Positions 9,682-27,827 of a DNA stretch of 36,033 nucleotides are shown here, piece after piece. The notes beneath the pieces were generated by a model that was given only the letters and a program-made list of their open reading frames with translations, did not search any database and was not told the origin of the DNA. How positions within the stretch are numbered: the stretch's first letter is position 1; each line of letters opens with the position of its first letter. The DNA comes from Propionibacteriaceae bacterium (lineage in GTDB: Bacteria > Actinomycetota > Actinomycetes > Propionibacteriales > Propionibacteriaceae). A program made the position numbers and the translations under genes. The stretch spans positions 1 to 36,033 of the forward strand of contig JAISUR010000021.1 in NCBI GenBank assembly GCA_031271975.1, written 5' to 3'.

Positions 9682-9695
9682 GAAGCAGACCCACC

Positions 9696-9887
9696 CGTCA
9701 TGCCGGACTCGTTCCGGCAAAACCCACCCGTCATGCCGGACTCGTTCCGGCATCTTGGGACGAAGTCCCATGCACCCCGGAAGGGGTGCCCCTACGGGGC
9801 ACACGGACTACGTCCGAGACCCCGGAACACCACCCCACAAAGTTCTTCGATACTTTGCGGGGACCCCGGAACGAGTCCCGGATGACG
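9696..9887 (+). repeat. Full-length structured repeat with terminal inverted repeats
   Basis: A 33-bp direct repeat places the left-end hairpin at 9696 and again at 9729. From 9729 to 9887 lies the most complete element. Its 22-bp ends (9729-9750 and 9866-9887) are inverted copies matching at 20 of 22 positions. Between them are hairpins GGGACgaaGTCCC, GCACCCC/GGGGTGC, GGACtacGTCC and CAAAGT/ACTTTG flanked by CCCC and GGGG. No open frame with family features is present, so it is non-autonomous if mobile. It lies between DUF4032 and cysS. Confidence 0.85.
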
Positions 9888-11386: not shown

Positions 11387-12262
11387 ATGGCAGGCAATTC
11401 GCAGCGGCGTTCGCTGCGCGGCAAGGGGCCGACTCCCAAGGCGGAGGACCGGCCCTATCACAAGGCGTATCGCAAGCGCCGTCCGGACGAGCCCGGGAAG
11501 ACGCCCGGCAAGGCGAAACGCGGCGGGGCCGGAAAGCCCGCGCGCCAAACGGCCAAACCCGGGGCGGACTGGGTATTCGGCCGCAACCCGGTCTATGAGG
11601 CGCTGCAGGCGGGCCTGCCGATCAAGCGGGCATTCGTGGCGGAGGGCGTCGAGCGCGACGACCGGCTGCGCGACATCCTCGCGTTTGCGGCGGCCAACGG
11701 CATTTCGCTGCTGCAGGCCACCCGCGCCGAACTCGACCGCATGACCGGTGGCGGCGTGCACCAGGGCGTCGCCCTGCAACTGCCGCCGTACGAGTACGCG
11801 GACATCTTGGACATCCTGGAATCCACACAGCCGATCGTGGCGCTGGATTCGATCACCGACCCGCACAATCTGGGCGCGATCATCCGCTCCGCCGCCGCGT
11901 TCGGTGCCGCCGTGGTGATCCCCGAACGCCGCTCCGCCCAGGTGACGGCCGCCGCCTGGAAAGCCTCCGCGGGAGCTGCAGCCCGCGTCCCGGTGGCCCG
12001 CGTGGTCAACCTCAACCGCACCCTGCGCCAAGCCGCTGATAGCGGCTACACCATCGTCGGCCTGGCCGGCGAAGCTGAAACCCCGATCACCGAAGTCACC
12101 GGCGACCCGGTCTGCCTGGTCGTGGGTTCCGAAGGCGACGGCCTGTCCCGCCTGGTCAGGGAGAACTGCGACGTGCTGGCCGCAATCCCGATCACGTCCG
12201 CCATCGAATCCCTGAACGCCTCCGTGGCCGCGGGGATCGCCCTATGGGAGTTGGCGAAATAG
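11387..12262 (+). CDS. rlmB: 23S rRNA 2'-O-methyltransferase RlmB / TrmH (SpoU) family
   Basis: The 291-residue SPOUT methyltransferase has a basic, disordered start (residues 1-60), then W-V-F-G-R-N-P-V-Y-E-A-L, the usual beginning of the substrate-binding domain. The trefoil-knot motifs are D-P-H-N-L-G-A-I-I-R-S-A (motif 1), V-V-G-S-E-G-D-G-L-S (motif 2) and I-P-I-T-S-A-I-E-S-L-N-A-S-V-A (motif 3, SAM binding). Members methylate the ribose of a guanosine, G2251 in E. coli 23S rRNA. Position after cysS supports the RlmB-type assignment. Confidence 0.92.
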   Translation: MAGNSQRRSLRGKGPTPKAEDRPYHKAYRKRRPDEPGKTPGKAKRGGAGKPARQTAKPGADWVFGRNPVYEALQAGLPIKRAFVAEGVERDDRLRDILAFAAANGISLLQATRAELDRMTGGGVHQGVALQLPPYEYADILDILESTQPIVALDSITDPHNLGAIIRSAAAFGAAVVIPERRSAQVTAAAWKASAGAAARVPVARVVNLNRTLRQAADSGYTIVGLAGEAETPITEVTGDPVCLVVGSEGDGLSRLVRENCDVLAAIPITSAIESLNASVAAGIALWELAK

Positions 12263-12267
12263 TCCGC

Positions 12268-12400
12268 CATCGGGATCTCGGACGTAGTCCGTGTGGCCCG
12301 CCAGGGGCACCCTTGCAGGGTGCATGGGACTTCGTCCCAAGATGCCGGAACAAGTCCGGCATGACGGGGGGTGGACACCGGAACAAGCCCGGCATGACGG
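12268..12400 (-). repeat. Structured repeat in reverse orientation plus a second end
   Basis: Reading on the minus strand, the left-end hairpin starts at 12367 and the GGGAC/GTCCC, GCACCC and GGACTACGTCC modules follow down to about 12268. An extra end copy (CCGGAACAAGCCCGGCATGA and onward) occupies 12378-12400. It fills the gap between the convergent rlmB and sigma-like genes. Confidence 0.8.
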
Positions 12401-12412
12401 GCTGGGGGCGTG

Positions 12413-12931
12413 CTACCTCCAGTGTTCGCCCGGTTTCGCGGTCTTCAGCCAGGTAACTGGATCCGGTGACGGTTCCGCGTCGGCGACCGGGTGGCGTTCC
12501 ATTTCGCGTTGCAGGCGAGCGGCGTAGTTTGCCAGGGCGGTTGCCAACTCGGCTTCCACCTTCGCCGCCGGACGCCCCGTGATTTCTTCAATTTCGGCGA
12601 CAGTCAGACCGTCCCAGTACGCGTGGCGGAGCACGTCGGCGTCGCGGACGCGCAGGTTGCGCAGGGCTTCGGCGGCGAGATCGGCCATCGTGGTGTATTC
12701 GATCTTGGGCGAGATGTTCTGGAAGATGGCAAACAGCGGCTTCTTTGACGCGGCGCGCCGGTACGCCTCGGAGACGACCTCGCCAATGGCCTGGTAAAGC
12801 CCCTTGAGGTCTGGTTTGCGGGCACGGCGCAGGGCGTCTTCGGCCAACGCCTCCGGGTCCCCCAGTTCGAAGGCCCGCCACTCGCAAGCTGCCACGGCCA
12901 GGGAGCGATACCGCTCGGCGAATTCATCCAT
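12413..12931 (-). CDS. Sigma-70 region-4-like protein
   Basis: The 172-residue product is soluble and alanine-rich. Residues about 95-135 read as a sigma-70 region 4 helix-turn-helix: V-L-R-H-A-Y-W-D-G-L-T-V-A-E-I-E-E-I-T-G, followed by a helix with R-P-A-A-K-V-E-A-E-L. The middle (K-G-L-Y-Q-A-I-G-E-V-V-S-E-A-Y-R) could be a divergent region 2 but I cannot confirm it. It may be a small sigma factor or only a sigma-like regulator. A GTG at 12952 is possible, but the ATG at 12931 has TAGGCT 7 bases before it (12939-12944), identical to the rlmB arrangement. It is divergent from the first propeller gene, 51 bases away. Confidence 0.6.
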   Translation of the reverse strand: MDEFAERYRSLAVAACEWRAFELGDPEALAEDALRRARKPDLKGLYQAIGEVVSEAYRRAASKKPLFAIFQNISPKIEYTTMADLAAEALRNLRVRDADVLRHAYWDGLTVAEIEEITGRPAAKVEAELATALANYAARLQREMERHPVADAEPSPDPVTWLKTAKPGEHWR

Positions 12932-12982
12932 GGACGCAAGCCTACTTGCCACAGATTTGCGTCAGTCAGCATTGTTAATTGT

Positions 12983-14095
12983 GTGACGAGTTTGCAGCGT
13001 TGGCAGATAGCCGTACTCGCAGTGGTCGGATTGGCTTTGGGGGCGGGCGCCGTGTTCGGCGTCAACGCCCTGACCGGGGTGGTGGCCGCCCCGAAGCAGA
13101 GCCCCGCCAGTTGGCAACAGTTGGAAGTGCCGTTCGAGCCGGGGGAATTTCCTTCCGCATCGGTGTGGCTGGGCGACGGCGAGTACTTGGTATTCGGAGT
13201 GGGCGCCAACACAGACCAGGCGTATCGTTTCTCACTCGCCGACATGTCTTGGCGGCAGGTGGCGGACATGCCGGCGCCCTACAAGGCCGGCGCCGACAAT
13301 CCGGTCGACTCCCAACTTGCGGTGCTCCATGACGGCAGCGTGTGGGTCGCCCTGGTGGACTCATTCGCTGACGAGGGAGTCGGAGACATGTCCCAGATCG
13401 TCCGCTACGACATCGCCGCAGATGCGTGGGAAACCGTCCGGGACTGTGCCAGTATCCCTGGCAATTTCGTAGACCTGGCCGCCACGCCGGACGCGGTCGC
13501 TGTGTTCAAGTGCGAGGGCTACGACACCGAGACCTTCGACTACTTGTTCGACGGCCAATGGCGGCAGGCCGCGATAGACGTGGACCAGCCGGCCGGAACC
13601 GGGGTCGGCAATGTGTTGTTCTTCGCGGTCGAGGAAGAGGACGACAACACCTACTACGAGGCTTTCGATCCCACCACAGGCAAATGGGTTGGGGAGGAAC
13701 CCGACCGGAATTGGGGAGGGGAACTGACGCATTTCCACGAGGACTTGCCGGGACATGGTCAGGGAGCCAACGCCAACACCACCACTGCCTCCAGCATCCC
13801 AGTTGTCGATGTGTCGCAGACACTGCTGAAAACACTGGACCCGGCCTCGCTTGAGCCCAAGGACACCGCACTGGTATGGGACGCCACAGGGGTCGGCGAC
13901 GCCCTGATGATCGTCCAGCAAGATGATCCCCAATCGGAATACATTTATTCGGCGATCGACCTGGACAGCGGCCACGCGTGGCGGTTGCCAGCCATGGACG
14001 GTCTGGACAAGGCCCCAGTTCCGGGCACATTCAACGGCACCGGCTACGCCCTGCATGGCCAGGACGGCAAGTGGTGGCTGGCAACCTTCGGGTGA
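12983..14095 (+). CDS. Exported Kelch-like beta-propeller protein (paralog A)
   Basis: The 370-residue protein has an N-terminal hydrophobic segment (residues 7-30, ending V-F-G-V-N with no lipobox cysteine), so it is either secreted or anchored by an uncleaved signal. The rest is built of short strands with Kelch-like blades, e.g. Y-R-F-S-L-A-D-M-S-W-R-Q-V-A-D-M-P and R-Y-D-I-A-A-D-A-W-E-T-V-R. It opens with W-Q-Q-L-E-V-P-F-E-P and ends G-T-G-Y-A-L...W-W-L-A-T-F-G. The next gene is a close paralog and the product of 16484-17785 a more distant one. The GTG start has CATTGT 7 bases upstream and no Shine-Dalgarno. The ligand is unknown. Confidence 0.75.
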   Translation: MTSLQRWQIAVLAVVGLALGAGAVFGVNALTGVVAAPKQSPASWQQLEVPFEPGEFPSASVWLGDGEYLVFGVGANTDQAYRFSLADMSWRQVADMPAPYKAGADNPVDSQLAVLHDGSVWVALVDSFADEGVGDMSQIVRYDIAADAWETVRDCASIPGNFVDLAATPDAVAVFKCEGYDTETFDYLFDGQWRQAAIDVDQPAGTGVGNVLFFAVEEEDDNTYYEAFDPTTGKWVGEEPDRNWGGELTHFHEDLPGHGQGANANTTTASSIPVVDVSQTLLKTLDPASLEPKDTALVWDATGVGDALMIVQQDDPQSEYIYSAIDLDSGHAWRLPAMDGLDKAPVPGTFNGTGYALHGQDGKWWLATFG

Positions 14096-14112
14096 GGCCC
14101 TTCGGTCCGACA

Positions 14113-14150
14113 CAGCTCAAGTCTTCGGGCAGGCAGCTCAAATCTTCGGG
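14113..14150 (+). repeat. Short tandem repeat between the propeller genes
   Basis: CAGCTCAAGTCTTCGGG (14113-14129) recurs at 14134-14150 with one mismatch, a 21-base period. It lies in the 110-base gap after the first propeller gene. It may be a double binding site or a small duplication; nothing else is seen in the gap. Confidence 0.6.
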
Positions 14151-14205
14151 TGAGCTATGAGCGGCCGGGCCGCCACGAATCTCGTAAGACCGGCATGTCA
14201 ATTGC

Positions 14206-15330
14206 ATGAAGAGTTTGCGGCGCTGGCAGGTGGCCGCTGTCGCATTGGCTTTGGGCGTCGGTGGTCTCTTCGGTTGCGGCTCCGGACAGGGCACGGTGGC
14301 GACTGGGGAGCCAAATGACACCGGTTCCAACACCGTCGAGCCAGCGGTCCCCCAAGAAGCCAGCCCCGCTAGTTGGCACCAGTTGGAAGTGCCGTTCGAG
14401 CCGTCCGGTGATCGCGCCGCCGCAGTGTGGTTGGGCGCCGGTGAGTACTTGGTGTTCGGCGTGGGCGGCGACGCCAACCAGGCATACCGCTTCTCGCTGG
14501 CCGACATGTCCTGGCGGCGCATGGCAGACATGCCGACGCCGTACTGGACGAGCCGCGTGCAGCAACACGCCGTGGTCAGCGGTGGGAGCGTGTGGGTCAA
14601 GATCCGCCAGGACCGCATTGACGGTGAAGGGGAAGGCAATACTCGTCTGGTGCGCTACGACATCGCCGCGGATTCGTGGGAGATGGTCCGTGACTGTGAC
14701 GATCTGGACGGTATGTCCCTGCTGGGAACGCGGCAAACGGTGGCGGTGCGCCACTGCTCCTATGATGACCAGCGAACCGTCGACTACTTGGTGAACGGTG
14801 ATTGGCGCCAGGCCCAAGCCGACGCCGAAAAAGAAACCATGGGCGTGGGAAACCTCTTGATTCAATACGGCGTTGATGACAACAGGGTTTGCCACTACAA
14901 CGCTCTCGACCTCGCCACCGGCGCATGGTCGGACAGGCGGAACCTCAACGAGGCGACTGGGGACCTACTGGGCTACCCCGTTTGCGAGGGTGCGACGACC
15001 ACTGCGGGCGACGCGCTGCTCGTTGGCTCTTCTGATGCTTTGATCAGCATTCTCGACCCGGTTTCGTCCGAGGCAAAGGACATCCCGATCAGGTGGGATG
15101 CCGCAGGGCCAGTGGGCGACAACGTCATGCTCCGCGATGATTACGCCAACTGGCAGTCGCACTATTGGGCGGTAGACCTCGACACGGGTCACGCTTGGCG
15201 GTTGCCCGAAGTGATCGACTGGGCCGATGGCTGTGAGGAACCAGTTCTGGGAACACTGGACGGCACCGGCTACGCCCTCTTGTCATCCAACGGTGATCAC
15301 ATCCGATGGTGGCTGGCGACGTTCGGGTGA
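14206..15330 (+). CDS. Beta-propeller lipoprotein (paralog B)
   Basis: The 374-residue protein is a tandem paralog of the preceding gene: W-H-Q-L-E-V-P-F-E-P, Y-L-V-F-G-V-G, Y-R-F-S-L-A-D-M-S-W-R-R-M-A-D-M-P, R-Y-D-I-A-A-D-S-W-E-M-V-R and the terminal W-W-L-A-T-F-G all recur in order. It differs in having a signal peptide ending G-L-F-G-C (Cys24), a lipobox, so it is probably a lipid-anchored surface protein, followed by a linker rich in Thr, Gly and Pro. Extra cysteines in the propeller could form disulfides. The start is ATG with no clear Shine-Dalgarno. alr begins 22 bases after its stop and may share its transcript. Confidence 0.75.
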   Translation: MKSLRRWQVAAVALALGVGGLFGCGSGQGTVATGEPNDTGSNTVEPAVPQEASPASWHQLEVPFEPSGDRAAAVWLGAGEYLVFGVGGDANQAYRFSLADMSWRRMADMPTPYWTSRVQQHAVVSGGSVWVKIRQDRIDGEGEGNTRLVRYDIAADSWEMVRDCDDLDGMSLLGTRQTVAVRHCSYDDQRTVDYLVNGDWRQAQADAEKETMGVGNLLIQYGVDDNRVCHYNALDLATGAWSDRRNLNEATGDLLGYPVCEGATTTAGDALLVGSSDALISILDPVSSEAKDIPIRWDAAGPVGDNVMLRDDYANWQSHYWAVDLDTGHAWRLPEVIDWADGCEEPVLGTLDGTGYALLSSNGDHIRWWLATFG

Positions 15331-15352
15331 CCTGCTGTGGCACGATAGTCGG

Positions 15353-16468
15353 GTGACTACCTCGTCTACCGCCATCACCGACCTTGCGGCGATCGCCGCC
15401 AACCTCGCTGCCGTCCGGGAGCGGGTGGGACAGCGGAAAGTGCTCGCGGCCGTCAAAGCGAATGCTTACGGGCATGGCGCCGTCGCCGTCGCCCAGATGA
15501 TCGAACAGCGCAAAGCCGCCGACGCGCTGGGAGTGGCGACCGTGGCCGAAGGGCTGGAGTTGCGCGAGGCCGGGGTGCGGCTGCCGATCTTGAAACTGTC
15601 CGTGGCGCGCGGATCGGAAGTGGCCGAGGCAGTCAAGGCCGGCATCACGCTGCCTGTGATCGACGCGACGTCCGTGCAGGAGTTGGAACAGGCCGCCATC
15701 GCATTGGGGCAATCCATCAACACGCACATCAAGGTGGATACGGGCATGGGCCGCATCGGCTGCCGCCCCGCCGACGCGCCCAAGCTGGCCGAACTCGTCG
15801 AAGAGTCGCAACTGCTGCGCCCGGCGGGCATCTTCTCGCACATGCCCGTCTCCGACACTCCCTCCCAAGACGAGTTCTCCCGCGCCCAGATCGCGCTGTT
15901 CGCCCGCACCTGCGCCGAAGTGGAGGCCATCACCGGGCCGCTGTTGAAGCACCTTTCCAACTCCGGGGCGGTTCTGGCCCACCCGGACGCCTGGTTCGAC
16001 ATGGTCCGGCCCGGCATCATGATCTACGGGGCCTACCCCGACCCGGACTGCCCGCAAACCGTTGCGCTGCGACCCGCGCTGGAATGGAAATCCCAAGTCA
16101 GCTTCGTGAAGCTCGTCCACGCTGGGGAGACCGTCTCCTACGGCCGCACCTGGCAGGCCGACGCCGACACCTGGATCGCCACGGTGCCCGTGGGCTACGG
16201 CGACGGCTACTCGCGCCTCGGCTCCAACCGCAGCCGGGTGCTGATCGGCGGACAGCCCTACCCGATCGCCGGACGGGTCTGCATGGACCAATTCATGGTG
16301 GTCCTCGGCGAGCACACCAACGTCCGGGTCGGAGACCAGGTGACTTTGATCGGCCGGGACGGCGAAGCTGAGATCACCACGTCGGAAGTGGCCGCCTGGA
16401 TGGGCACCATCCCCTACGAAGTGACGTGCCTGATCACCCGGCGGGTGTTGCGCGCATACCGAGGGTAA
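15353..16468 (+). CDS. alr: Alanine racemase (PLP-dependent)
   Basis: The enzyme converts L- to D-alanine for peptidoglycan. The 371-residue product has V-K-A-N-A-Y-G-H-G-A (the PLP-binding lysine), K-V-D-T-G-M-G-R-I-G, H-L-S-N-S-G-A, R-P-G-I-M-I-Y-G, and V-G-Y-G-D-G-Y-S-R with the catalytic tyrosine region and G-R-V-C-M-D-Q-F. The GTG start follows CACGAT by 6 bases and has no Shine-Dalgarno; the frame is open upstream into the lipoprotein gene, but homology begins here. It is placed between propeller genes, with only 15 bases to the convergent membrane-propeller gene. Confidence 0.95.
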   Translation: MTTSSTAITDLAAIAANLAAVRERVGQRKVLAAVKANAYGHGAVAVAQMIEQRKAADALGVATVAEGLELREAGVRLPILKLSVARGSEVAEAVKAGITLPVIDATSVQELEQAAIALGQSINTHIKVDTGMGRIGCRPADAPKLAELVEESQLLRPAGIFSHMPVSDTPSQDEFSRAQIALFARTCAEVEAITGPLLKHLSNSGAVLAHPDAWFDMVRPGIMIYGAYPDPDCPQTVALRPALEWKSQVSFVKLVHAGETVSYGRTWQADADTWIATVPVGYGDGYSRLGSNRSRVLIGGQPYPIAGRVCMDQFMVVLGEHTNVRVGDQVTLIGRDGEAEITTSEVAAWMGTIPYEVTCLITRRVLRAYRG

Positions 16469-16483
16469 CCCTGCGAAGCGCCC

Positions 16484-17785
16484 TCACTTGAACGAGGCGA
16501 GCAGCCAATTCCCGGTGTAGACCTCGCGATAGAGGGCGTAGCCGACGCCGTCCGCGGCGCCCAGGACAGCCGCAGTTGTCGCAGGCTCTGCAGCGGCCGA
16601 CCTGCCGGGGACTTCGAGGGTGAACACGTTGCCCGAATCCAAGTCGATAACCAGGTCTGCTTCCGGCGAGTAGGGCTCCGACTCGTCGTCGCGGTACTGC
16701 TGCGTGGTGACGATCAGATTGCCGCCCACGGTCCCGCCCACGTCCCAGTTCAGCGCAAGTTCCTCCGCCTGCAGCGTGTCGGGATTGAAGAACCTGACTG
16801 CCCGGCGGTTTTCCGGATCGTCGATTCCCGACCAGAACATCCGGTCGATCACGGTGGAGCCGCCGCTGAGGTTGGGAACCGTTGACCATCCGTACGGCGC
16901 GGTCGCGGCGGGCAAGGTGACCGAATCCCACTCACCTGCTGCACCGAAGACTTTCACCCAGGAGTTTTGCATGTCGTCGGTTTCCAGTGTCACCAGTTTG
17001 CCGCCTGATTCGAACATGCCGGACAGCCATTCGTCGTCCATGTCGTTGGGTGCCGCCGACACCGGGAGCCATTCGCCGTCGGCCAAGTACTCCACCTCGT
17101 CGTCGTAGCGGACGTAAACGGTCTCGCCCACCGCCAACACGGACACGACCGTCGACTCCCATTGTCTGACCTCGGCCCATTCGTCCGCGGCCATGTCGTA
17201 GCGCAGCAGGACGACCAGGTCAATTTCACCAGTGGCCTTGACCGCCAACCAGGCGTACTGGCCGGCGACCGCGATTTCGCTGCTGTCGGCTTCGCCAGAT
17301 CCGGGGAACGGCATGTCGGCCAACTGTGTCCACGTGTGGAAAGCTGGATCGAAGCGGTAGCTCTCCTGGACGGTCGGCCCGACACCGAAGAACCAGTAAC
17401 TTCCATCCGCCCACACCGCGTACTGTGAACCGCTGTCCTGGCCGGCCGGCTCGAACGGCGTGTAAAGATCTTCCCAAGACACGGTCGCCTGGGGTGCCGG
17501 AACGGCTACCGTCGGCTCGCCCGGACCCAGCGGCAACTGCACTTGCGCGGGCGGCATCATCATCGTCACGATCAAGGCGCCGACGGCACCGACGATGGCG
17601 AACACGGCCGCCACGGCAACAAGGCGCCATGGGCTGGCCTTGGGCTTGGCGCGCAAGAAGACGGTGGCGTCAAGGGGCTGAAACGCCTGGGTGCGGGTCG
17701 CTGACTGCATGCGGGCGCGCACGTACGAGCGGACGCGCTCATCGTCCGACCGGTATTCCTCCAGCGAAGTCACTTTGTTGCTCAT
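16484..17785 (-). CDS. Membrane-anchored beta-propeller, putative sigma-factor partner (paralog C)
   Basis: The 433-residue protein has three parts. Residues 1-53 are cytoplasmic and charged, with no Cys/His zinc motif. Residues 54-76 form one membrane span (W-R-L-V-A-V-A-A-V-F-A-I-V-G). Residues 77-433 form an outer domain homologous to the two propeller proteins encoded nearby: W-E-D-L-Y-T-P-F-E-P, W-F-F-G-V-G, Y-R-F-D-P...W-T-Q-L-A-D-M-P, R-Y-D-M-A-A-D-E-W, and G-V-G-Y-A-L...N-W-L-L-A-S-F-K. Its ATG overlaps the sigma-factor stop as ATGA. The coupling and topology suggest an anti-sigma-like sensor with the propeller outside the cell; this role is inferred, not shown by a recognised anti-sigma domain. 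Confidence 0.75.
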   Translation of the reverse strand: MSNKVTSLEEYRSDDERVRSYVRARMQSATRTQAFQPLDATVFLRAKPKASPWRLVAVAAVFAIVGAVGALIVTMMMPPAQVQLPLGPGEPTVAVPAPQATVSWEDLYTPFEPAGQDSGSQYAVWADGSYWFFGVGPTVQESYRFDPAFHTWTQLADMPFPGSGEADSSEIAVAGQYAWLAVKATGEIDLVVLLRYDMAADEWAEVRQWESTVVSVLAVGETVYVRYDDEVEYLADGEWLPVSAAPNDMDDEWLSGMFESGGKLVTLETDDMQNSWVKVFGAAGEWDSVTLPAATAPYGWSTVPNLSGGSTVIDRMFWSGIDDPENRRAVRFFNPDTLQAEELALNWDVGGTVGGNLIVTTQQYRDDESEPYSPEADLVIDLDSGNVFTLEVPGRSAAAEPATTAAVLGAADGVGYALYREVYTGNWLLASFK

Positions 17786-18303
17786 GACACCCCCTTGATC
17801 AAGTTCTTGCGCATTGCCGCGACCCCACGGTGCAAATGCGAACGGGCCGTGGCCTCCGAGCAGCCCAACACGTCGCCTATCTCCTCGAAACTCGCATCCT
17901 CGTAGAACCGCATGACCACGGCCGTGCGCTGCTTCAGCGGCAACTGGTCACACATCTCAGCCACCCACATGACGTCGACGACGCCGTCTGCCGACGGCAT
18001 GGCCGCGCCGCCTTCGACCACCCGGGACATGTCCTCCCAGGTGGTCTCTTTTCGCGTCTTGCGCCACCGGGACACGTTCGCGTTGGCGATGGAACGCCGC
18101 ACGTACGCGCCGGCCTTGCCCCCGGCCGCGACCTTGTCCCAGTGCCGATACGCGCCCAGCAAGGCGTCCTGCACCGCGTCCAGTGCGTCTTCCCGGTTAC
18201 CGGTGATCAGATAGGCGAACTCTTGCAGCGCGACCGACTCGGTGGCGACGAAATGCTCAAACGTCGGCACGAAAGAGCCCGGGGACCACTGGTCTTGACC
18301 CAC
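17782..18303 (-). CDS. ECF sigma factor, SigE-type family
   Basis: The 173-residue product has sigma region 2 (F-A-Y-L-I-T-G-N-R-E-D-A-L-D-A-V-Q-D-A, then A-Y-V-R-R-S-I-A-N-A-N-V-S-R-W-R-K) and region 4 (L-P-L-K-Q-R-T-A-V-V-M-R-F-Y-E-D, helix-turn-helix S-F-E-E-I-G-D-V-L-G-C-S-E-A-T-A-R-S-H). Y-V-R-R followed by a basic stretch is typical of the actinomycete SigE-like subfamily. Longer starts (ATG at 18327 and beyond) are open, but GAAGGAG at 18310-18316 sits 6 bases before this GTG and the length fits the family. The downstream gene is translationally coupled and probably its regulator. Confidence 0.9.
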   Translation of the reverse strand: MGQDQWSPGSFVPTFEHFVATESVALQEFAYLITGNREDALDAVQDALLGAYRHWDKVAAGGKAGAYVRRSIANANVSRWRKTRKETTWEDMSRVVEGGAAMPSADGVVDVMWVAEMCDQLPLKQRTAVVMRFYEDASFEEIGDVLGCSEATARSHLHRGVAAMRKNLIKGVS

Positions 18304-18309
18304 TGCGCG

Positions 18310-18316
18310 CTCCTTC
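18310..18316 (-). promoter_or_regulatory. Ribosome binding site deciding the sigma-factor start
   Basis: GAAGGAG on the minus strand, 6 bases before the GTG at 18303. It selects this start over the ATG at 18327, which has no comparable site. Confidence 0.7.
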
Positions 18317-18356
18317 AAGCCGTTCATACCAATACTGACGCAGGACCGGGCGGTTT

Positions 18357-18370
18357 CGTGGCAAACCACG
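18357..18370. promoter_or_regulatory. Small inverted repeat between sigma factor and oxidoreductase
   Basis: CGTGG (18357-18361) and CCACG (18366-18370) flank CAAA in the divergent gap. It could be an operator or a short hairpin; no clear ECF-type promoter was found. Confidence 0.3.
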
Positions 18371-18387
18371 CGGTCTCTATTTTTCGG

Positions 18388-18417
18388 GTGACGAGAGCAA
18401 GGCGCCGGGTCTATCCT
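18388..18417 (+). promoter_or_regulatory. Promoter of the Gfo/Idh/MocA gene
   Basis: TATCCT (18412-18417) is 7 bases before the ATG at 18425, the leaderless arrangement. GTGACG at 18388-18393 is a possible -35 with an 18-base spacer. Confidence 0.5.
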
Positions 18418-18424
18418 TCCCAGC

Positions 18425-19456
18425 ATGAGGACTCTTCCACCTACTCGGGTGCCCACGCCGGGGGACGCCCCGGGGCTGAAATGGGGCATCATCGCCCCCG
18501 GCGGGATCGCCAACAGATTCGCGCGGGCCATCCGCGCCCACACCAGGCAAGAAATCGCCGCTGTCGGGTCGCGCTCGCTGGAGCGGGCGCAGCAGTTCGC
18601 CGAGCGCTACCAGATCGAGAAGGCCTACGGCTCCTACGAGGAGTTGGTGGCTGATCCGGAAGTGCAGGCCATCTACGTCTCATCGCCGCACAGCCAGCAC
18701 TGCGAGCAGGCGCTGCTGTCCATCGCCGGGGGCAAGCACGTGCTGGTGGAGAAGGCGTTCGCCCGCAACGCCGCCGACGGCCAACTCATGGTCGACGCTG
18801 CCCGCCAAGCCGGCGTGGCGCTGATGGAGGCCATGTGGACGCGCTTCCTGCCCGGCATCGACATCATTCGGCAGTTGCTGGCCGACGGCGCGCTGGGCGA
18901 CATCCGGTTGGTGGCCGCCGACCACGGCCAGGACTTGCGGCACGTGCCGCGCCTGCTCGACCCGGACACCGCCGGCGGCGCTTTGCTCGACTTGGGCGTC
19001 TACGTGATTTCGTTCGCGGCCTTCGCGCTGGGCCAACCCGGCGCGATCACTGCCCGCGGCAGCCTGCTCGATTCCGGCGTGGACGCCCAGGAAGCGATGA
19101 TTCTCAACGGCTACGCCGCGCATCCGGGCGCCGAAGCGGTGCTGCACGCGACGATGTCCGCGCGCACGCCCACGACGGCCATCATCTGCGGCACAGACGG
19201 CCGCATCGAGCTGGACAGCGACTTCTACACCCCGCAGCCCGTCCACTTCATCGCGCCGGACAACACCCGCCTGACCAGCCCGAGCCCGCGCGTCCACCTG
19301 CATCAAGCGCTGTGCTACGAAGCCGAGCACTTCGCCACGATGGTCGCCGAAGGCCGCACCGAATCCGAATGGCTCCCCCTGGAGGAAACCCTGGAAATCC
19401 TGCGCACCATGGACGAGGTGCGAGCGCAACTAGGCGTGCGCTTCCCCGGGGAATAA
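18425..19456 (+). CDS. Gfo/Idh/MocA family oxidoreductase
   Basis: The 343-residue protein has an N-terminal Rossmann domain (W-G-I-I-A-P-G-G-I-A-N-R-F at about 20-32), A-I-Y-V-S-S-P-H-S-Q-H, and L-V-E-K-A-F-A-R-N in place of the family's usual E-K-P. The C-terminal half carries the beta-sheet domain with G-G-A-L-L-D-L-G-V-Y-V-I. Such enzymes oxidise or reduce sugar, inositol or dihydrodiol substrates with NAD(P). The substrate is unknown. It is a single gene, divergent from the sigma factor and convergent with the SLH operon. Confidence 0.88.
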   Translation: MRTLPPTRVPTPGDAPGLKWGIIAPGGIANRFARAIRAHTRQEIAAVGSRSLERAQQFAERYQIEKAYGSYEELVADPEVQAIYVSSPHSQHCEQALLSIAGGKHVLVEKAFARNAADGQLMVDAARQAGVALMEAMWTRFLPGIDIIRQLLADGALGDIRLVAADHGQDLRHVPRLLDPDTAGGALLDLGVYVISFAAFALGQPGAITARGSLLDSGVDAQEAMILNGYAAHPGAEAVLHATMSARTPTTAIICGTDGRIELDSDFYTPQPVHFIAPDNTRLTSPSPRVHLHQALCYEAEHFATMVAEGRTESEWLPLEETLEILRTMDEVRAQLGVRFPGE

Positions 19457-19554
19457 GACCCATGCGCGCCACAGGCGTGCCCCTGCCGGGCCACACGGAC
19501 TACGTCCGAGATCCCGGAACACCACCCCACAAAGTTCTTCGATACTTTGCGGGG
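19457..19554 (+). repeat. Structured repeat lacking its left end
   Basis: It starts directly at the oxidoreductase stop with a worn middle module, then GTGCCCC, GGACTACGTCC and the CCCCACAAAGT...ACTTTGCGGGG hairpin at about 19526-19554. That last module is nearly identical to 9833-9862. It lies between convergent genes. Confidence 0.8.
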
Positions 19555-19563
19555 ACGGCTGGG

Positions 19564-22491
19564 TTAAGCCCCTAGATACCGGTACATGAATGCGGCCATC
19601 TCGTCGCGGGTGCATCCCCGGTCGGGGTGGTAAAGCGTGCCGGCGCTGGCCACCTCCTGGGCACGCATCCATTCGATGTCGGAGAAGAACATGTGGGTGC
19701 GGGGCACGTCGGTGTAACTGGGCGCGACGACGGTGATCGGCGTGAATCCGTTCCGGTAGATGTCCAGGCGGTGTAGGAAGGCGGCGATTTCCCCCCTGGT
19801 AGCGGGCTGGTCCGGCAGGTAGCGGCCGCCCCCGGCGCCGGTGGTGATGCCGGACGCCTTCAGCCATTCGATGTCGGAATAGAACATGTGCGTCTTCGGC
19901 ACGTCGGAGAACGACGGCGTCGCCGGGCTGGTGAACGCCGGGCGCCCGGCCATGCGATACAGGTAGGCGGCCATCTCGGCGCGGGTCACGTCCCGGTCGG
20001 GCCAGAAGTTGTCGGAAGTGGCGCTGACGATGCCGCGTTGCACGAGGTCGTTGATGGCCACGTAGAAGCGCTGTGTCGAGGGCACGTCGATGAAATAGCG
20101 CACCTGGCGCGGTGTCTGCGCCGTAAACACCTGTGTCGCGCCAGATTTCGACACCGTCACCGTCAAAGTGATCCGCGAACCCAGGTCGGCGGCCGTGGGC
20201 GTGAACGTGGCCGTGGTGGAGCGGATGACGTCGCCGCGTTTCCAGGCGTATTGGAAGGTCGACGCCGGACACGACAGCCCGGCGGCCGACAGAGGCTGCC
20301 CCACGCGGATCGTGCCCTGGATCGATAGCGTGCCCGTGCAAAGAACCGGCTGAATCAACTCGACGGTGTAGTTGAAGCCGTATTCGTATGCGTCCGCCCA
20401 CACCGACACCCAGTAGGTGCTGTGCGAATCCAGTGTCGCCGTGATCGCATAGACGCCGTCGCCCTGGTCTTCCAAGTCGCCCACATAATTCCATTCCAGG
20501 TCTTCCATGTAGCCGTAAAGCAGGTGGCTGGAGCGGAACTTGATCGTGTACTCCCCCGTGACAGGCGGCGTGAAGGCCCAAAAGTCCTCGTCAAACAGGT
20601 ATTGGATGCCGCCGGACGCGCCGTTGGCCAACGCGCACGCCAAATCTAGGTCTTGGCCGCAATCGTCGTAGCCCAAGCTCAGCGTGTAGTCGAAACCGGA
20701 AAGGAAGTTTCCGAGCACGGCGAGCGTGTATTGCTGCCCGGTCACCACCCCTTCCGGCCGCTGCAGGACGAACGCCGCCGTCTCGTTGCCGCCCCCCCAC
20801 ACAAACCAGGCCGACGCCCAGTCGAGCCAGTTGCCGGCCTGGTCGTACAGGGCGGCGCGCGCCGGCTGGCCTTCCAGCCCGGGCGCGACAGCGGCTTGGA
20901 TGAACCAGTTTCCGGCAGGCGCGGTGACTTTGTACCAATCCACGTCGTAGGGATACTCGATCCGGCCGGTGGTGCCGTTGGAGAACACGCACGATGTCGC
21001 CTTGTCGTCGCGGCAGACGTCGGCGGTGGGGTGATATGTGTACGCGAGCACGGCCGCGTCCTCGTCCAGGCTTTGCACGGTCACGGTCAGGTGCCCGCCC
21101 GCGGAGCGGAACGTGTCCCCGGGCTGCAGATAAACCGGGGTTTCGGCCCGGTCGGACCAGTAGCGGGCTTCGTTGGCGGGCTGGATGACCATCTGGCTGG
21201 TCGAATAGACCGCCGCCGATCCCACCCGCAGCACGGCCACACCCAAGGGCGTGCGCCACCGCTGCGCGCGGAATTCGAAGAAGTACGAATAGCCGGGAAG
21301 CGTGTCGTTGGCATTCGCGTCCGGCCGGAACACCACCGCCTGAACGCCGGAGTTATTCGAAACCGGCGAGACGGGCAATACGACCGTGCCGCTGCCGTCT
21401 TGGGTGATCTCGGTCAACCCGTCACCGTAGTCGATGATGCCGAGTTGGAATTTGTGGACGGCGCTGAGCCGGTCGGCGATACCCATCACGTCCCAGTTGT
21501 CGCCGTACTCGATCTCGCGGCAGCCGTAGGAATTGTCCTGGTCCCAGGTGACCAAGTTCGTGTTGGCCTGGTGGCATTCCTGCCGATAGTCGTGGGTGAA
21601 GCCGAGCGTGTGCCCAAACTCGTGCGCCATCAGGTGGCTGCGCAGGTCGGCAGGCTGGCCGAGGCGCACTTCCATCATCGACGAATTCCCCAGCGAAATG
21701 TCGCCGCTGAGCGGATACGACGCCACGCCGTCCGAGCCTTGGATCGCAACCCCCGCGGCTTCGCACAGCGGCACGGACTCGAACACGATCAGGTGCTTGC
21801 CAGCGGAGAAGAATTCCCGGGTCACGCCGAACAGGTCGACTGCCTCGTCCCACACATTCCAGATCCGGGGCTGGTTGCAGGACCAACTGGTGTTGAACGT
21901 GCGGAAGTTGGCCTCGTCCCAGACCAGGTCGAACCTGCTGCCGACGAACTCGCGGTAGTTGGTTTCCAGATCGTTCAGGTGCGTCCAGATATTCGGCTTG
22001 GACAGCCAGTTCGTCGACTGCCCTTGCGGCGCGGCGACGGCCACGTACACCTCATGTGTCCAATACGAATCCGGTAGCGCGTCCGCTGTCGGGCCGCCCT
22101 TCAGCGCTGGCCGTTCCAGGACTTCGACGTCGCTGACCGCCAATGCGGTGCCCGCCGCTTCGGCCAGCAGCCCGCTGCTGACAGCGGAACCAGCTTTCAG
22201 TTTGCCGCGCTTGTCACCAGGCACCTTGGCGGCGATCTTGGCAGGCACGGCCACAGTTGCCCGCACTGTGGCGCCGGTCTGCAGGTCTGCCGCGGCCACG
22301 TCGACGCTGGTGCCATCAGCGAGCACGATCTGCGCCAAGGTGGTGGAAGCGCCGTCCGCAACAGGTTCCGCGACCGCCGACCACACCGTGCCCTCGACCT
22401 CGATTGGGACGTCCGAAGCCGCTTCAGCCGGCGGGGCCGTCACCAATGCCAACACCAAACTGGCGCCCAACGCCGCCACCACAGTTCTCAT
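19564..22491 (-). CDS. Secreted metzincin-like metalloprotease with three SLH domains
   Basis: The 975-residue protein has a signal peptide (residues 1-26, ending P-P-A-E-A-A). The zinc site H-E-F-G-H-T-L-G-F-T-H is at 290-300 (ligands His290, His294, His300; base Glu291), and the Met-turn-like D-V-M-G follows near 334-337, a metzincin layout resembling peptidase M11 (gametolysin). Two prepeptidase-C-terminal-like beta domains cover about 490-710, an Ig-like domain with V-T-V-S-K-S-G about 717-797, and three SLH repeats 799-975 (F-x-D-V...T-R-A-E-M-A-A-Y-L-Y-R), which attach the protein to cell-wall polymers. Its ATG overlaps the stop of the upstream SLH gene (ATGA). The frame is open further upstream but the signal peptide fixes the start. 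The target protein is unknown. Confidence 0.88.
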   Translation of the reverse strand: MRTVVAALGASLVLALVTAPPAEAASDVPIEVEGTVWSAVAEPVADGASTTLAQIVLADGTSVDVAAADLQTGATVRATVAVPAKIAAKVPGDKRGKLKAGSAVSSGLLAEAAGTALAVSDVEVLERPALKGGPTADALPDSYWTHEVYVAVAAPQGQSTNWLSKPNIWTHLNDLETNYREFVGSRFDLVWDEANFRTFNTSWSCNQPRIWNVWDEAVDLFGVTREFFSAGKHLIVFESVPLCEAAGVAIQGSDGVASYPLSGDISLGNSSMMEVRLGQPADLRSHLMAHEFGHTLGFTHDYRQECHQANTNLVTWDQDNSYGCREIEYGDNWDVMGIADRLSAVHKFQLGIIDYGDGLTEITQDGSGTVVLPVSPVSNNSGVQAVVFRPDANANDTLPGYSYFFEFRAQRWRTPLGVAVLRVGSAAVYSTSQMVIQPANEARYWSDRAETPVYLQPGDTFRSAGGHLTVTVQSLDEDAAVLAYTYHPTADVCRDDKATSCVFSNGTTGRIEYPYDVDWYKVTAPAGNWFIQAAVAPGLEGQPARAALYDQAGNWLDWASAWFVWGGGNETAAFVLQRPEGVVTGQQYTLAVLGNFLSGFDYTLSLGYDDCGQDLDLACALANGASGGIQYLFDEDFWAFTPPVTGEYTIKFRSSHLLYGYMEDLEWNYVGDLEDQGDGVYAITATLDSHSTYWVSVWADAYEYGFNYTVELIQPVLCTGTLSIQGTIRVGQPLSAAGLSCPASTFQYAWKRGDVIRSTTATFTPTAADLGSRITLTVTVSKSGATQVFTAQTPRQVRYFIDVPSTQRFYVAINDLVQRGIVSATSDNFWPDRDVTRAEMAAYLYRMAGRPAFTSPATPSFSDVPKTHMFYSDIEWLKASGITTGAGGGRYLPDQPATRGEIAAFLHRLDIYRNGFTPITVVAPSYTDVPRTHMFFSDIEWMRAQEVASAGTLYHPDRGCTRDEMAAFMYRYLGA

Positions 22492-25400
22492 GACAAATAC
22501 CTCCACAGGAATGCCGCCATCTCGTCCCGGGCGCACGCCCGGCTGGGATTGAAGTTCGCCGCCGCCGCGGCAATGCCTTGGGCGCGCATCCATTCGATGT
22601 CGGAGAAGAACGTGTGGGTGCGCGGCACATCCGCGTAGCTGGGCGCGGGCACTGTGAGCGCGCGGAAGCCGTGCAGGTAGATGTCCAGGCGGTGCAGGAA
22701 CGCGGCGACCTCGCCCCGCGTGGCGGCTTGGTCCGGCAAGAACTTCCCGTTGCCCGCACCAGTCGTAATGCCCGACTGCTTCAGCCACTCGATGTCGGAA
22801 TAGAACATGTGCGTCTTCGGCACGTCAGTGAACGACGGCGCCGCTGGGCCGGAGAACGCCGGGGCCCCGGCCATGCGATACAGGTAGGCGGCCATTTCGC
22901 CCCGGGTGACCGCCCGGTCCGGCCAGAAACCGCCGCCGGTGGCGCTCGACGAGACAATCCCAGCCTGCACGAGGTTGGTGATCTCCAGATAGAAGCGCTG
23001 TGTGACCGGCACGTCCGAGAAGTACACCACTTTCGCCGGCCAACGGTTCGGCAGCGCTACCGCCTCCAGGGTGAGCGGTGAATAGTGCACATATGCGCCG
23101 AACGTGGACCATTCGGACTCGTCGATGGGCGCGTCGCCCAGCCAGCCGGGTCGGCCCAGGGAGATGGTTGCCGTGGGCACGGCCCGGTTTTGGACCTTGA
23201 ACGTGCCTTGCTCGGTCGTGCCGATCCACCACTGCTGAGCGGGTGTCGGAGCCGCGCCGACATCCGTCAAGGCGACGGCATGCGACCACTCGCTGGTGGC
23301 GTTGCCCAAAGTGAGCGCCTTGCCGCCGAACTTCAGCACCGCATACCCGTCGGCGGTGTACGAGATGTCGAAATACTGGTTCGCGTTGGCGACTGTGGCC
23401 GCCCGGGTCCCCACAACGCCGTTCCGGACTTCGAGCACGTAGGCGTCCAGCCCGCCGTGGATCCGGTAGGTGCCCGGCATCGCCGGCCAGACCACCGCGC
23501 CCGACACCGGTTTGATCGGCGTATCCGCAGAATTGAGGGCACCGGCCGAACCTGGCCAGGGCGTGCCCGACAATACGATCGCCGACTGCGAATTCAGCTT
23601 CTTGACGTCCGCCACGCGCACGCCGGCGGCCGCGGAGAAACCGATCTGCCGATAGCTGCCGCCGGTACCGAACCAATCCCCGTTGCGGATGCGGTAGTAG
23701 TAGCCCTGCAGCACCTGGTACTTGGCCCGGCCTGACGCGTCTGTCTTGATCGTCCCGGCAGCCCGGCCGTCAAGATAGACGTTGACCGTCGTGTTCGCCA
23801 GCGCCTGCCCGGCGGAGTTCTTGAAGACGGCGTCCAAGGTGCGGATCACCGAGAGTTCCGCCTCGCCGGTGCCCACGTCCGGGCTGGCCGCCGGGTCGCC
23901 GAGCACCGTCACGCCGTCGGTTTGCGGCGGCAGCAGATTCACGCCCACACCCTCTATCGGGTCGATGATGCGGTTGTTGTTCGTCGGGTAGGAGTACCAA
24001 GCCAGCCTGATGGGCAGGAACATCGAGTCGTGGCTGTTTATCCGCTCGAAAGAGTTGCCGGAGGCCATCAAGATCCCGCCGCCCACGCCGTAGCTGGAGG
24101 TCAACTCGATCAGGTGGTAGTTGCCGATGAGCCGGTTGTTTTCCATCAGCAGGTCGTTCATGCGGTTTTCCGTCGTGCGCTCCACGGCCCCGCTGACCTC
24201 CAGGGCGGTCACTTCCCGCCCGGACGACCACCGTTCGAAGCCCGGCTCCGGATCGACCACCAGCTCGGCCTTCATGACATTGCCGCGCAGCACGTTGTTG
24301 AGCGAGCGCGTGCCTTCGCCGCCGGAAAGCCAAAAGGCCTTGCCATACATGCCTTCCTCGTACACCTTCACCACCGCCGTGTTGTTTTCCCACAGCGCGT
24401 CGTGGGTGTCCAGTTCCGACCAGTGCCCGGTTTGCTGGTTGCCGCCATAGTCGGTGTAGCGGAAGCCGCCGCCGCCCGACAAGCGGTAGCCGTATTCGTT
24501 CAGTTCGCGTCTGAAGGGCGCGTCGATGTGCATGTAAGCCAGGTTGTGGACGCAGTCCATATACGAGGCGATCGCGTACCCTTGCGGGTTGAAACCCAGG
24601 CCAAAGACATAGTTGTCCTTGACGTATGTCTTCTCGGTGGCGTAGAAGAAGTGCGCGATGCCGATCGAGTTCACGGTGTACGAGTCGATGTATATCTCGT
24701 TGTGGATCATGTCCCCGGTCATGGCGATGCCCATCTGCCGCGCCCGGCGTGCCGAGTTGAAGCTGGCGTCGCCCGTCCCGAAGATGATCCGGGAGCCCTG
24801 GTGGCGGTTTCCCGTGAACGTGCCCAGGTCGTAGATCACATTGTGGTTGACGGACGCTCCATCCACGCTGATGGCCCGCAGCGAATCGCCGCGATAGCGC
24901 AAGGTGAGGCCCTCCACGACGCAGTCGTGGCACTCGCCCAGCGCGACGGGGCCCATGTGCTCGGTGCAGTCCGGGTTCCCGGCGCTGCCCTGGGCACCTT
25001 GGACGACGGAACCATTGGCGATGGTGACGTGTGAAGCCGGATGCCCGAACTTGACGCCGTAGGTCTCCAATGGGTTGTCTTGGCCACCCGGCCCGGCGTT
25101 GTCGTAGGTGACGGTGTGCCCGCCGAGGTCCAAGGTGACGTTCGCGTTCGGATTGGCCAGGCCGATGATGGCGGTGGCGTCAGCTGTGATGTCTTGTGTG
25201 ACCAGATAGGTCTTGCCGTCGCCGGAAAGCTGATAGGGGGCTCCGCCCGGCATATCTTCCGGGATGCGGACCACGTCCGGCGTCATCGCCTTGGTGCGCA
25301 AGGTCTTGTCGGCCGAGGCCCGCGTCACGCCGTCGGCGCCTTTGTACAGCAGCCGGTAGTGGTAGACGGTGTCGGGCTGCAGGCCGGTCAGATAGCGCAG

Positions 25401-27357: not shown

Positions 27358-27827
27358 ACGTCATTTTCGTGTGCTGGGGCAACATCTGCCGCTCGCCGAT
27401 GGGCCGGTTCGTGGCCGAGAAGTGGTTCGCCGAAGCCGGGCTGGACGCCGTGGTGACCAGCGCTGGAGTGAGCGACGAGGAGCACGGCAACCCGGTCTAT
27501 TACACCGCCCAGCAGGTGTTGCGGGAGCACGGCTACGCGTACGCCCCACACCGGGCCCACCAAATCACCGCCTCCGAAATAGCCGGCGCCGACCTCGTCA
27601 TCGGCTTTGAGCCGATCCACATCTCCCGGATGCGCCGCATCGCCCCACAAGCCGGCAACCTGCGCCTCATCACCGATTTCGACCCGGACGCCGCCACGGA
27701 CGGCATTGCGGATCCGTGGGGCTACCCGGCATCCGAATTCCGTGAAACCTTGGCGGGAATCGAGGCGGCTATGCCGGGAATCCTCGCCGAGGTGCAACAA
27801 TTGGCCGCAGCGAAGTCGAAAGGCTGA
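27354..27827 (+). CDS. Low-molecular-weight protein tyrosine phosphatase
   Basis: The 157-residue product carries the P-loop V-C-W-G-N-I-C-R-S, with nucleophile Cys7, Cys12 and Arg13 of the CX5R signature, and the general-acid loop D-P-W-G at Asp120. Such enzymes dephosphorylate phosphotyrosine proteins, or arsenate in relatives; the substrate is unknown. The TTG start overlaps the preceding stop (TTGA), indicating coupling. The response regulator starts 2 bases after its stop. Confidence 0.9.

Follow-up and report, generated by a model that had tools for sequence, protein, structure and literature searches.

The DNA analysed here, referred to as the window, is a stretch of 36,033 nt from a Propionibacteriaceae bacterium (GenBank assembly GCA_031271975.1, contig JAISUR010000021.1, positions 1 to 36,033, forward strand). 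It carries the gene of an extracytoplasmic function (ECF) sigma factor, paired with the gene of a one-helix membrane protein (MP), and two genes (P1 and P2) for exported homologues of the outer part of MP. An initial annotation, made from the sequence alone, had listed these four genes and a region-4-like gene (R4), and the five open reading frames were all found where it had placed them. The sigma gene (17782-18303, reverse strand) encodes a SigE-type ECF sigma factor, and its stop codon shares the ATGA at 17782-17785 with the start codon of MP (16484-17785, reverse strand), as had been described. P1 (12983-14095, 370 aa) and P2 (14206-15330, 374 aa) are read from the forward strand, as is an alr-like gene that ends at 16468; because this gene separates P2 from MP, the three propeller genes are not one operon. 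Neighbouring gene names (alr, rlmB, cysS and oxidoreductase) were assigned by eye.

The sigma factor, MP and the exported propellers

Both regions expected of an ECF sigma factor, a short protein with regions 2 and 4, were recognised within 173 aa and above the Pfam cut-off (Sigma70_r2, 40.3 bits; r4_2, 53.0 bits). Among the NCBIfam models TIGR02983 was by far the best (123.9 bits, below its cut-off of 141.55), and a search of PDB sequences matched ECF sigma chains (best E 2.2e-11). The description of MP's neighbour as a SigE-type ECF sigma factor was thus borne out by regions 2 and 4, with TIGR02983 as the best model though below its cut-off. The length of 173 aa was counted from GTG 18303, which has AAGGAG upstream; the protein would be 181 aa long from ATG 18327, and this codon, 13 nt past the first base of the -10 box described below, may be the start.

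MP is predicted to begin with a tail inside the cell, to cross the membrane by a single helix (about residues 55-73) and to carry an exported Kelch-type propeller (about residues 103-433). Counted exactly, 54 residues stand ahead of the helix, with a net charge of +4 immediately before it. Because residues 1-54 contain no Cys and no His, the tail lacks the zinc anti-sigma motif (Hx3Cx2C, as given in PMC7406223), in agreement with the annotated cytoplasmic part of about 53 residues without such a motif. MP has the features of a membrane anti-sigma factor, namely a gene coupled to a sigma gene, an N-terminus inside and one helix, the transcription and the topology being predicted.

The annotated homology of the three propeller proteins and their three membrane formats were both confirmed. 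In an alignment of MP, P1 and P2 the motifs W..L..PFEP, YRF, W...ADMP, RYD-A-D-W and W-L-A-F are invariant columns. MP is 34-37% identical to the other two (E 5.5e-27 with P2 and 2.3e-22 with P1), and no MP homologue beyond these was found in the 2.7-Mb genome at E ≤ 0.01. P1 and P2 look like the products of a tandem duplication, since their proteins are 52% identical and their genes share DNA blocks reaching 95% identity. MP is the sole one of the three with a cytoplasmic part: by eye, P1 begins with a signal/anchor segment, which would make it secreted or N-terminally anchored, P2 has a lipobox-like LFGC, and both are without a cytoplasmic tail.

We take the outer domains of all three to be Kelch-type propellers. 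The Pfam Kelch scores were all below the cut-off (MP, 16.1 against 20.1; P1, 23.3 against 25.3; P2, 22.0 against 25.3), and Pfam gave no match to a TolB domain in MP at E ≤ 1. When the MP/P1/P2 family was aligned by hhalign with a profile built from seven Kelch anti-sigma proteins of relatives, a probability of 97.6 and an E value of 4.7e-12 over 232 columns were obtained; a control profile, built from three members of that class without a propeller, gave a probability of 0.8. A search of PDB sequences with the family returned three matches at E ≤ 0.1, all of them Kelch proteins. The structure model covers MP alone: it was built with AlphaFold2 from three sequences (mean pLDDT 59.1, pTM 0.62) and its outer part is beta-rich. 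Its best E value among the PDB matches listed by Foldseek was 8.6e-10, and the 50 listed are presumably all Kelch domains or Kelch-like propellers, judging by their titles. The profile and the low-confidence model both agree with the propeller fold that had been annotated.

Exchange of the exported domain among SigE-type pairs

The sigma protein was searched against 60 genomes (its own and 59 relatives), and at least 49 of them contained a match at E ≤ 1e-8 among the matches listed. A set of 41 loci was then compared, consisting of the window and 40 others (the best 38 after the window's own among the matches listed, plus two rows from its own genome). In 41/41 loci the product of the gene that follows the sigma gene begins with a short tail in the cytoplasm, crosses the membrane by one helix and continues into an exported part. 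When the start codon closest to the sigma stop is taken, it overlaps that stop in 38 loci. The helix begins at residue 36-55 in the 40 proteins measured and further in at L087, where it was judged by eye. The initial annotation had stated that the architecture matched no recognised system; this was not upheld, because the pair proved to belong to a large class in which membrane proteins resembling anti-sigma factors carry outer domains that can be exchanged. Pairs of an ECF gene and a membrane propeller, which it had proposed to seek in other genomes, recur within that class.

Two loci with a masked outer part (L059 and L087) were left out of the sensor tree, which therefore has 39 rows. The outer domain is counted as Kelch-type in 18 of these, including 6 of the 8 pairs in the window's own genome; with Pfam Kelch_6 alone, at E ≤ 0.01, the count is 14/39. 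The propeller labels of L052, L055, L056 and L062 go back to weak Pfam Kelch matches, and in the comparison among outer domains these four matched only themselves; the label of L063 depends on its match to L062, and L065 was labelled 'other', although it is possibly another propeller type.

The exchange is seen between close loci. The sigma factors of L067 and L068 are 86% identical and the N-termini of their partners 53% (E 3.7e-16), those of L066 and L060 are 84% and 75% identical (E 2.4e-23), and in both cases the outer domains are without similarity. On the sigma tree the sensor type changes at least nine times over the 39 rows, six of these changes being forced by well-supported branches, and the types are still more clustered than in most shuffles (shuffle mean 13; 6-7 of 500 as low). 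By these comparisons the class is modular, the tail being kept and the sensor exchangeable.

The window sigma factor groups on this tree with L051 and L058, pairs with non-propeller sensors. Orthology with the oxidoreductase-linked sigma genes of G027, G026, G016, G018 and G012, which have the same neighbourhood, was considered and rejected because of this placement; a common clade with them is unsupported, though not rejected by test (p-AU 0.074). At that same oxidoreductase-linked locus the anti-sigma sensor is Kelch or unrelated, depending on the relative (L119 and L120 versus L118, L121 and L122).

The modularity of the class supports a sensor role for MP's propeller and, because the pair belongs to a class with an exchangeable exported part, MP is most likely an anti-sigma factor with its propeller as sensor. 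Its tail has FQPLD at the place matching the pattern E..AFR..L......F.PLD, which is common to many tails of the class. A proven precedent is the pair Tt-RpoE1/Tt-TolB of Thermoanaerobacter tengcongensis (PMC3397946), in which an ECF sigma gene is likewise followed by the gene of a one-helix membrane protein with a short, sigma-binding and inhibitory N-terminus and a large outer part, behind an autoregulated promoter with CGTC in its -10 box. Residues 1-39 of Tt-TolB bind Tt-RpoE1, and addition of Tt-TolB lowers its transcription; the outer part differs in being a TolB domain, against Kelch in MP, and exported paralogues are not described in the available portion of that report (PMC3397946). 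From the class and from Tt-TolB we infer that the MP tail binds the sigma factor. The annotated role of the membrane propeller as holder of the sigma factor was to this extent strengthened.

Promoter predictions and the exported copies

The sequences upstream of the other 40 sigma genes served to train a two-box promoter matrix, with the window sigma gene held out; the consensus of the matrix is GCAACGAAA - 11 nt - CGTgT. The top site of the window, at 21.2 bits, is the predicted sigma promoter (18329-18362, reverse strand), which has the -35 box GCCACGAAACC (18362-18352), an 11-nt spacer and the -10 box CGTCAGTATTGG (18340-18329); six simulated windows, one strand each, reached at most 17.1 bits. 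The predicted P2 promoter (14172-14205, forward strand) reads GCCACGAATCT - 11 nt - CATGTCAATTGC, then ATG, and scored 15.9 bits, the fourth best of the window. A site as good was present in 3/20000 simulated upstream regions and upstream of 12 of the 3186 possible start codons of the window (P2's own neighbours counted). The site predicted for P1 (12948-12982, forward strand), GCCACAGATTT - 12 nt - ATTGTTAATTGT, then GTG, is weaker. With the same matrix no ECF-type promoter was detected upstream of R4, alr, the oxidoreductase gene, rlmB or MP (at most 1.0 bits). We regard the sigma and P2 promoters as strong predictions and the P1 promoter as a weak one. A string noticed by eye in both the sigma and the P1 upstream regions, TGCGTCAGT, was not used; it sits in the spacer of P1's better-fitting site.

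Two promoter patterns were searched in the whole genome. GCMACGAA-N13-15-CRTGT gave 5 sites against 0 for the reversed control, among them P2, another sigma gene (C9:190019) and an exported RCC1 propeller on contig C23; the other pattern gave 21 sites against 1, including those of the window sigma gene and of an exported Kelch protein of 243 aa on contig C40. Seven of the 26 pattern sites score at least 15.5 bits: two precede sigma genes, three precede exported propellers and two have no evident target. A strong ECF-type promoter precedes the gene of the 243-aa protein (L161:746-1474, reverse strand; genome G000, contig C40), which may be a truncated gene, and more RCC1-like sequence lies upstream of the RCC1-type propeller (L141; G000, contig C23).

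A second propeller also accompanies an anti-sigma gene in two relatives. On contig C6 of G010 a Kelch anti-sigma gene overlaps a downstream gene for a free propeller, which by eye has its own N-terminal helix, and G009 has, at the corresponding locus (C164), a single 765-aa protein in which the two are fused. Residues 2-442 of the G009 protein match the G010 anti-sigma protein with 56% identity, and residues 431-765 match the free propeller with 69%. Since the same domain occurs free in G010 and fused in G009, this pair of genomes suggests that the free form works together with the anti-sigma factor. The G010 free propeller is also P2's best match outside its own genome (E 4.0e-5). As a separate observation, the propeller of the G010 anti-sigma protein (L132, 2280-4121) has an extra C-terminal part past a PT-rich linker, with no counterpart in the fused G009 protein.

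Because P2 (strongly) and P1 (weakly) carry a promoter of the sigma-gene type, and because a free or fused second propeller is present in relatives, a link between the exported propellers and the circuit is probable. Their annotated membership in it is thus supported in part, by predicted promoters and by two relatives.

Proposed circuit and alternatives

In the mechanism that we propose, the SigE-type sigma factor would autoregulate the operon that it forms with MP. The 54-residue MP tail would hold the sigma factor at the membrane while the Kelch-type propeller senses the outside, and a signal, probably followed by proteolysis of MP, would free the sigma factor; the signal and the protease step are assumed, being taken over from other anti-sigma systems. 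The window's own genome has one M50 match, a site-2 protease candidate. SigE-type sigma factors would also switch on P1 and P2, the tail-less copies of MP's outer propeller; in the role that we consider likeliest for them, these would bind MP's propeller or its ligand on the outer face and so feed back on the circuit. The core of this proposal, a sigma/MP pair together with ECF control of the exported copies, is held with moderate confidence. An action of P1 and P2 on MP, suggested by their homology and by the free and fused propellers of the two relatives, is put forward tentatively. The fullest version is speculative and rather unlikely as a whole: under the sigma factor, copies of its anti-sigma sensor without the tail, an anchored one and a lipoprotein-like one, would be produced, and these would pair or compete with the sensor propeller and set the threshold or the shut-off of the response.

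Several results weigh against the proposal. Against a profile of the other tails the MP tail scored a weak 7.9 bits, and 12/2000 shuffles were as good (best shuffle 14.5 bits); a loosely defined tail pattern is matched by MP and by 25 of the other 39, yet also by 268/5000 shuffles of the MP tail, and BLAST gave no match between the MP tail and those of L051, L058, L062 and L063. The MP model is poor, as its mean pLDDT indicates, with Foldseek TM-scores of about 0.4-0.5 by target and an rmsd mostly of 6-10. The P1 site is weak at 9.3 bits (167/20000 simulated upstream regions and 34 of the 3186 start codons have one as good), and two window sites without an evident tie to the module outscore that of P2 (27794, forward strand, and 8638, reverse strand; 18.1 and 18.2 bits). 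A strict pattern search in G009, G010 and G028 gave three sites, of which one is the G028 sigma promoter and none precedes an exported propeller, and a search with P2 of 29 other genomes of the genus gave no match at E ≤ 1e-4 except the remote G010 free propeller. Finally, the -10 box of P2 shares 10/12 bases with that of the C9:190019 sigma promoter and only 6/12 with that of the window sigma promoter, which makes it possible that P2 is not read by the window sigma factor. The site at 27794, as an aside, has a 9-nt spacer and precedes a start that looks by eye like that of a response regulator.

This last point bears on cross-wiring, in which another SigE-type sigma factor reads P1 and P2. 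A candidate is C9:190019, itself followed by a Kelch-type anti-sigma gene; its promoter is also the nearer one to P2's in the -35 box (10/11 bases, against 9/11 for the window sigma promoter), and at least eight SigE-family matches occur in the genome among the matches listed. The -35 box is nevertheless nearly the same in both promoters and P1 and P2 stand beside the window's sigma gene, and we consider cross-wiring possible but somewhat doubtful. A reading that comes nearer to an even chance, while staying short of it, is that P1 and P2 are regulon output alone: as Kelch proteins that are secreted or sit at the surface, they would bind or modify an outside target and make no contact with MP. 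Exported proteins are common ECF targets, and promoter-like sites also precede the exported RCC1 propeller and the 243-aa exported Kelch protein; on the other hand, P1 and P2 are the sole matches to MP's sensor in the genome at E ≤ 0.01 and lie near MP, and elsewhere a second propeller is fused into the anti-sigma protein.

The two remaining alternatives concern MP and R4. MP could be a membrane activator or anchor needed by the sigma factor, not an anti-sigma factor; the tail without a zinc motif and its weak profile score would fit, but architecture and gene order are those of the proven anti-sigma factor Tt-TolB and of the whole class, which makes this improbable. R4 (12413-12952, reverse strand) had been annotated as a region-4-like protein on the other side of the propellers, and that description stood: it flanks P1, Pfam matches region 4 only, and the N-terminal part is, by eye, degenerate and region-2-like. 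R4 as a working partner of the module, a split or accessory sigma factor, did not fare as well, and we regard it as very improbable. The gene is divergent from P1, its region 4 is sigma-like, and in five relatives, too, a SigE-type sigma gene is found some kilobases away. Its homologues are nevertheless found in 22 of the 29 other genomes of the genus (and in one further genome of the family, with one match each), against a P2 match in 1/29, the remote one in G010; R4 adjoins alr in G029 and G017, with no propellers between, and has no ECF-type promoter. It was accordingly rejected as a default part of the module and seems to have long been a neighbour at this chromosomal site. Members of the R4 family (the window gene and L099-L117), which is sigma-like and genus-wide, have a degenerate region 2 and conserve CEWRA and KPG-type motifs in the C-terminal part.

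Membrane anti-sigma factors that carry a large outer domain are already known, and the extra exported copies seem to be the unusual part of the pair. The RsgI proteins of Clostridium thermocellum reportedly belong to another sigma family and have other sensor domains. They are alike in that several paralogous anti-sigma factors, sensing different substrates, occur per genome, and the available portion of the source makes no mention of tail-less exported copies (PMC12203970). In the Gram-negative FoxA/FoxR/FoxI system an exported partner, itself under the control of the sigma factor, attaches to the anti-sigma factor's outer domain: the FoxA signalling domain binds FoxR and shields it from proteolysis; that partner, according to the part of the report available, is an outer-membrane receptor domain and no copy of the sensor (PMC11637429). 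Class I anti-sigma domains include membrane-bound factors with and without the zinc motif, according to the accessible text (PMC7406223). In ECF57 propeller-type repeats (WD40-like C-terminal extensions) are also coupled to an ECF sigma factor, but there, as far as the accessible text goes, they sit in the sigma protein itself (PMC8999054). Among open-licence papers, to which the search was confined and which are no proof that the matter is unpublished, none was found that describes Kelch anti-sigma factors as a class whose sensors are exchanged and which has exported copies without a tail behind promoters of the same type; of those joining anti-sigma factor and kelch, none was judged, from titles and the starts of abstracts, to treat a Kelch anti-sigma factor.

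An unannotated gene pair can now be assigned to a large, actinobacterial-type class of sigma/anti-sigma switches, whose members keep their tail but swap their outer sensor between close loci. The results also suggest a further use of the sensor fold, in free exported proteins that stand behind promoters of this kind. If P1 and P2 do feed back on MP, the circuit would be one that copies its own sensor. The promoter matrix offers a route to predicting the targets of this genome's SigE-type sigma factors.

Around the module, an Rfam scan of positions 12000-19000 gave no match at gathering scores. An oxidoreductase-like gene (18425-19456, forward strand; named by eye) lies beyond the sigma gene and adjoins a gene at 19564-22788 (reverse strand) for a large protein that is metalloprotease-like by eye (HEFGH, an HExxH motif) and has C-terminal SLH-like repeats. 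Positions 9694-9864, 12271-12401 and 19449-19556 hold copies, in both orientations, of a dispersed repeat that is about 110-130 nt long and has ends of the CCGGCATGACGGG type.

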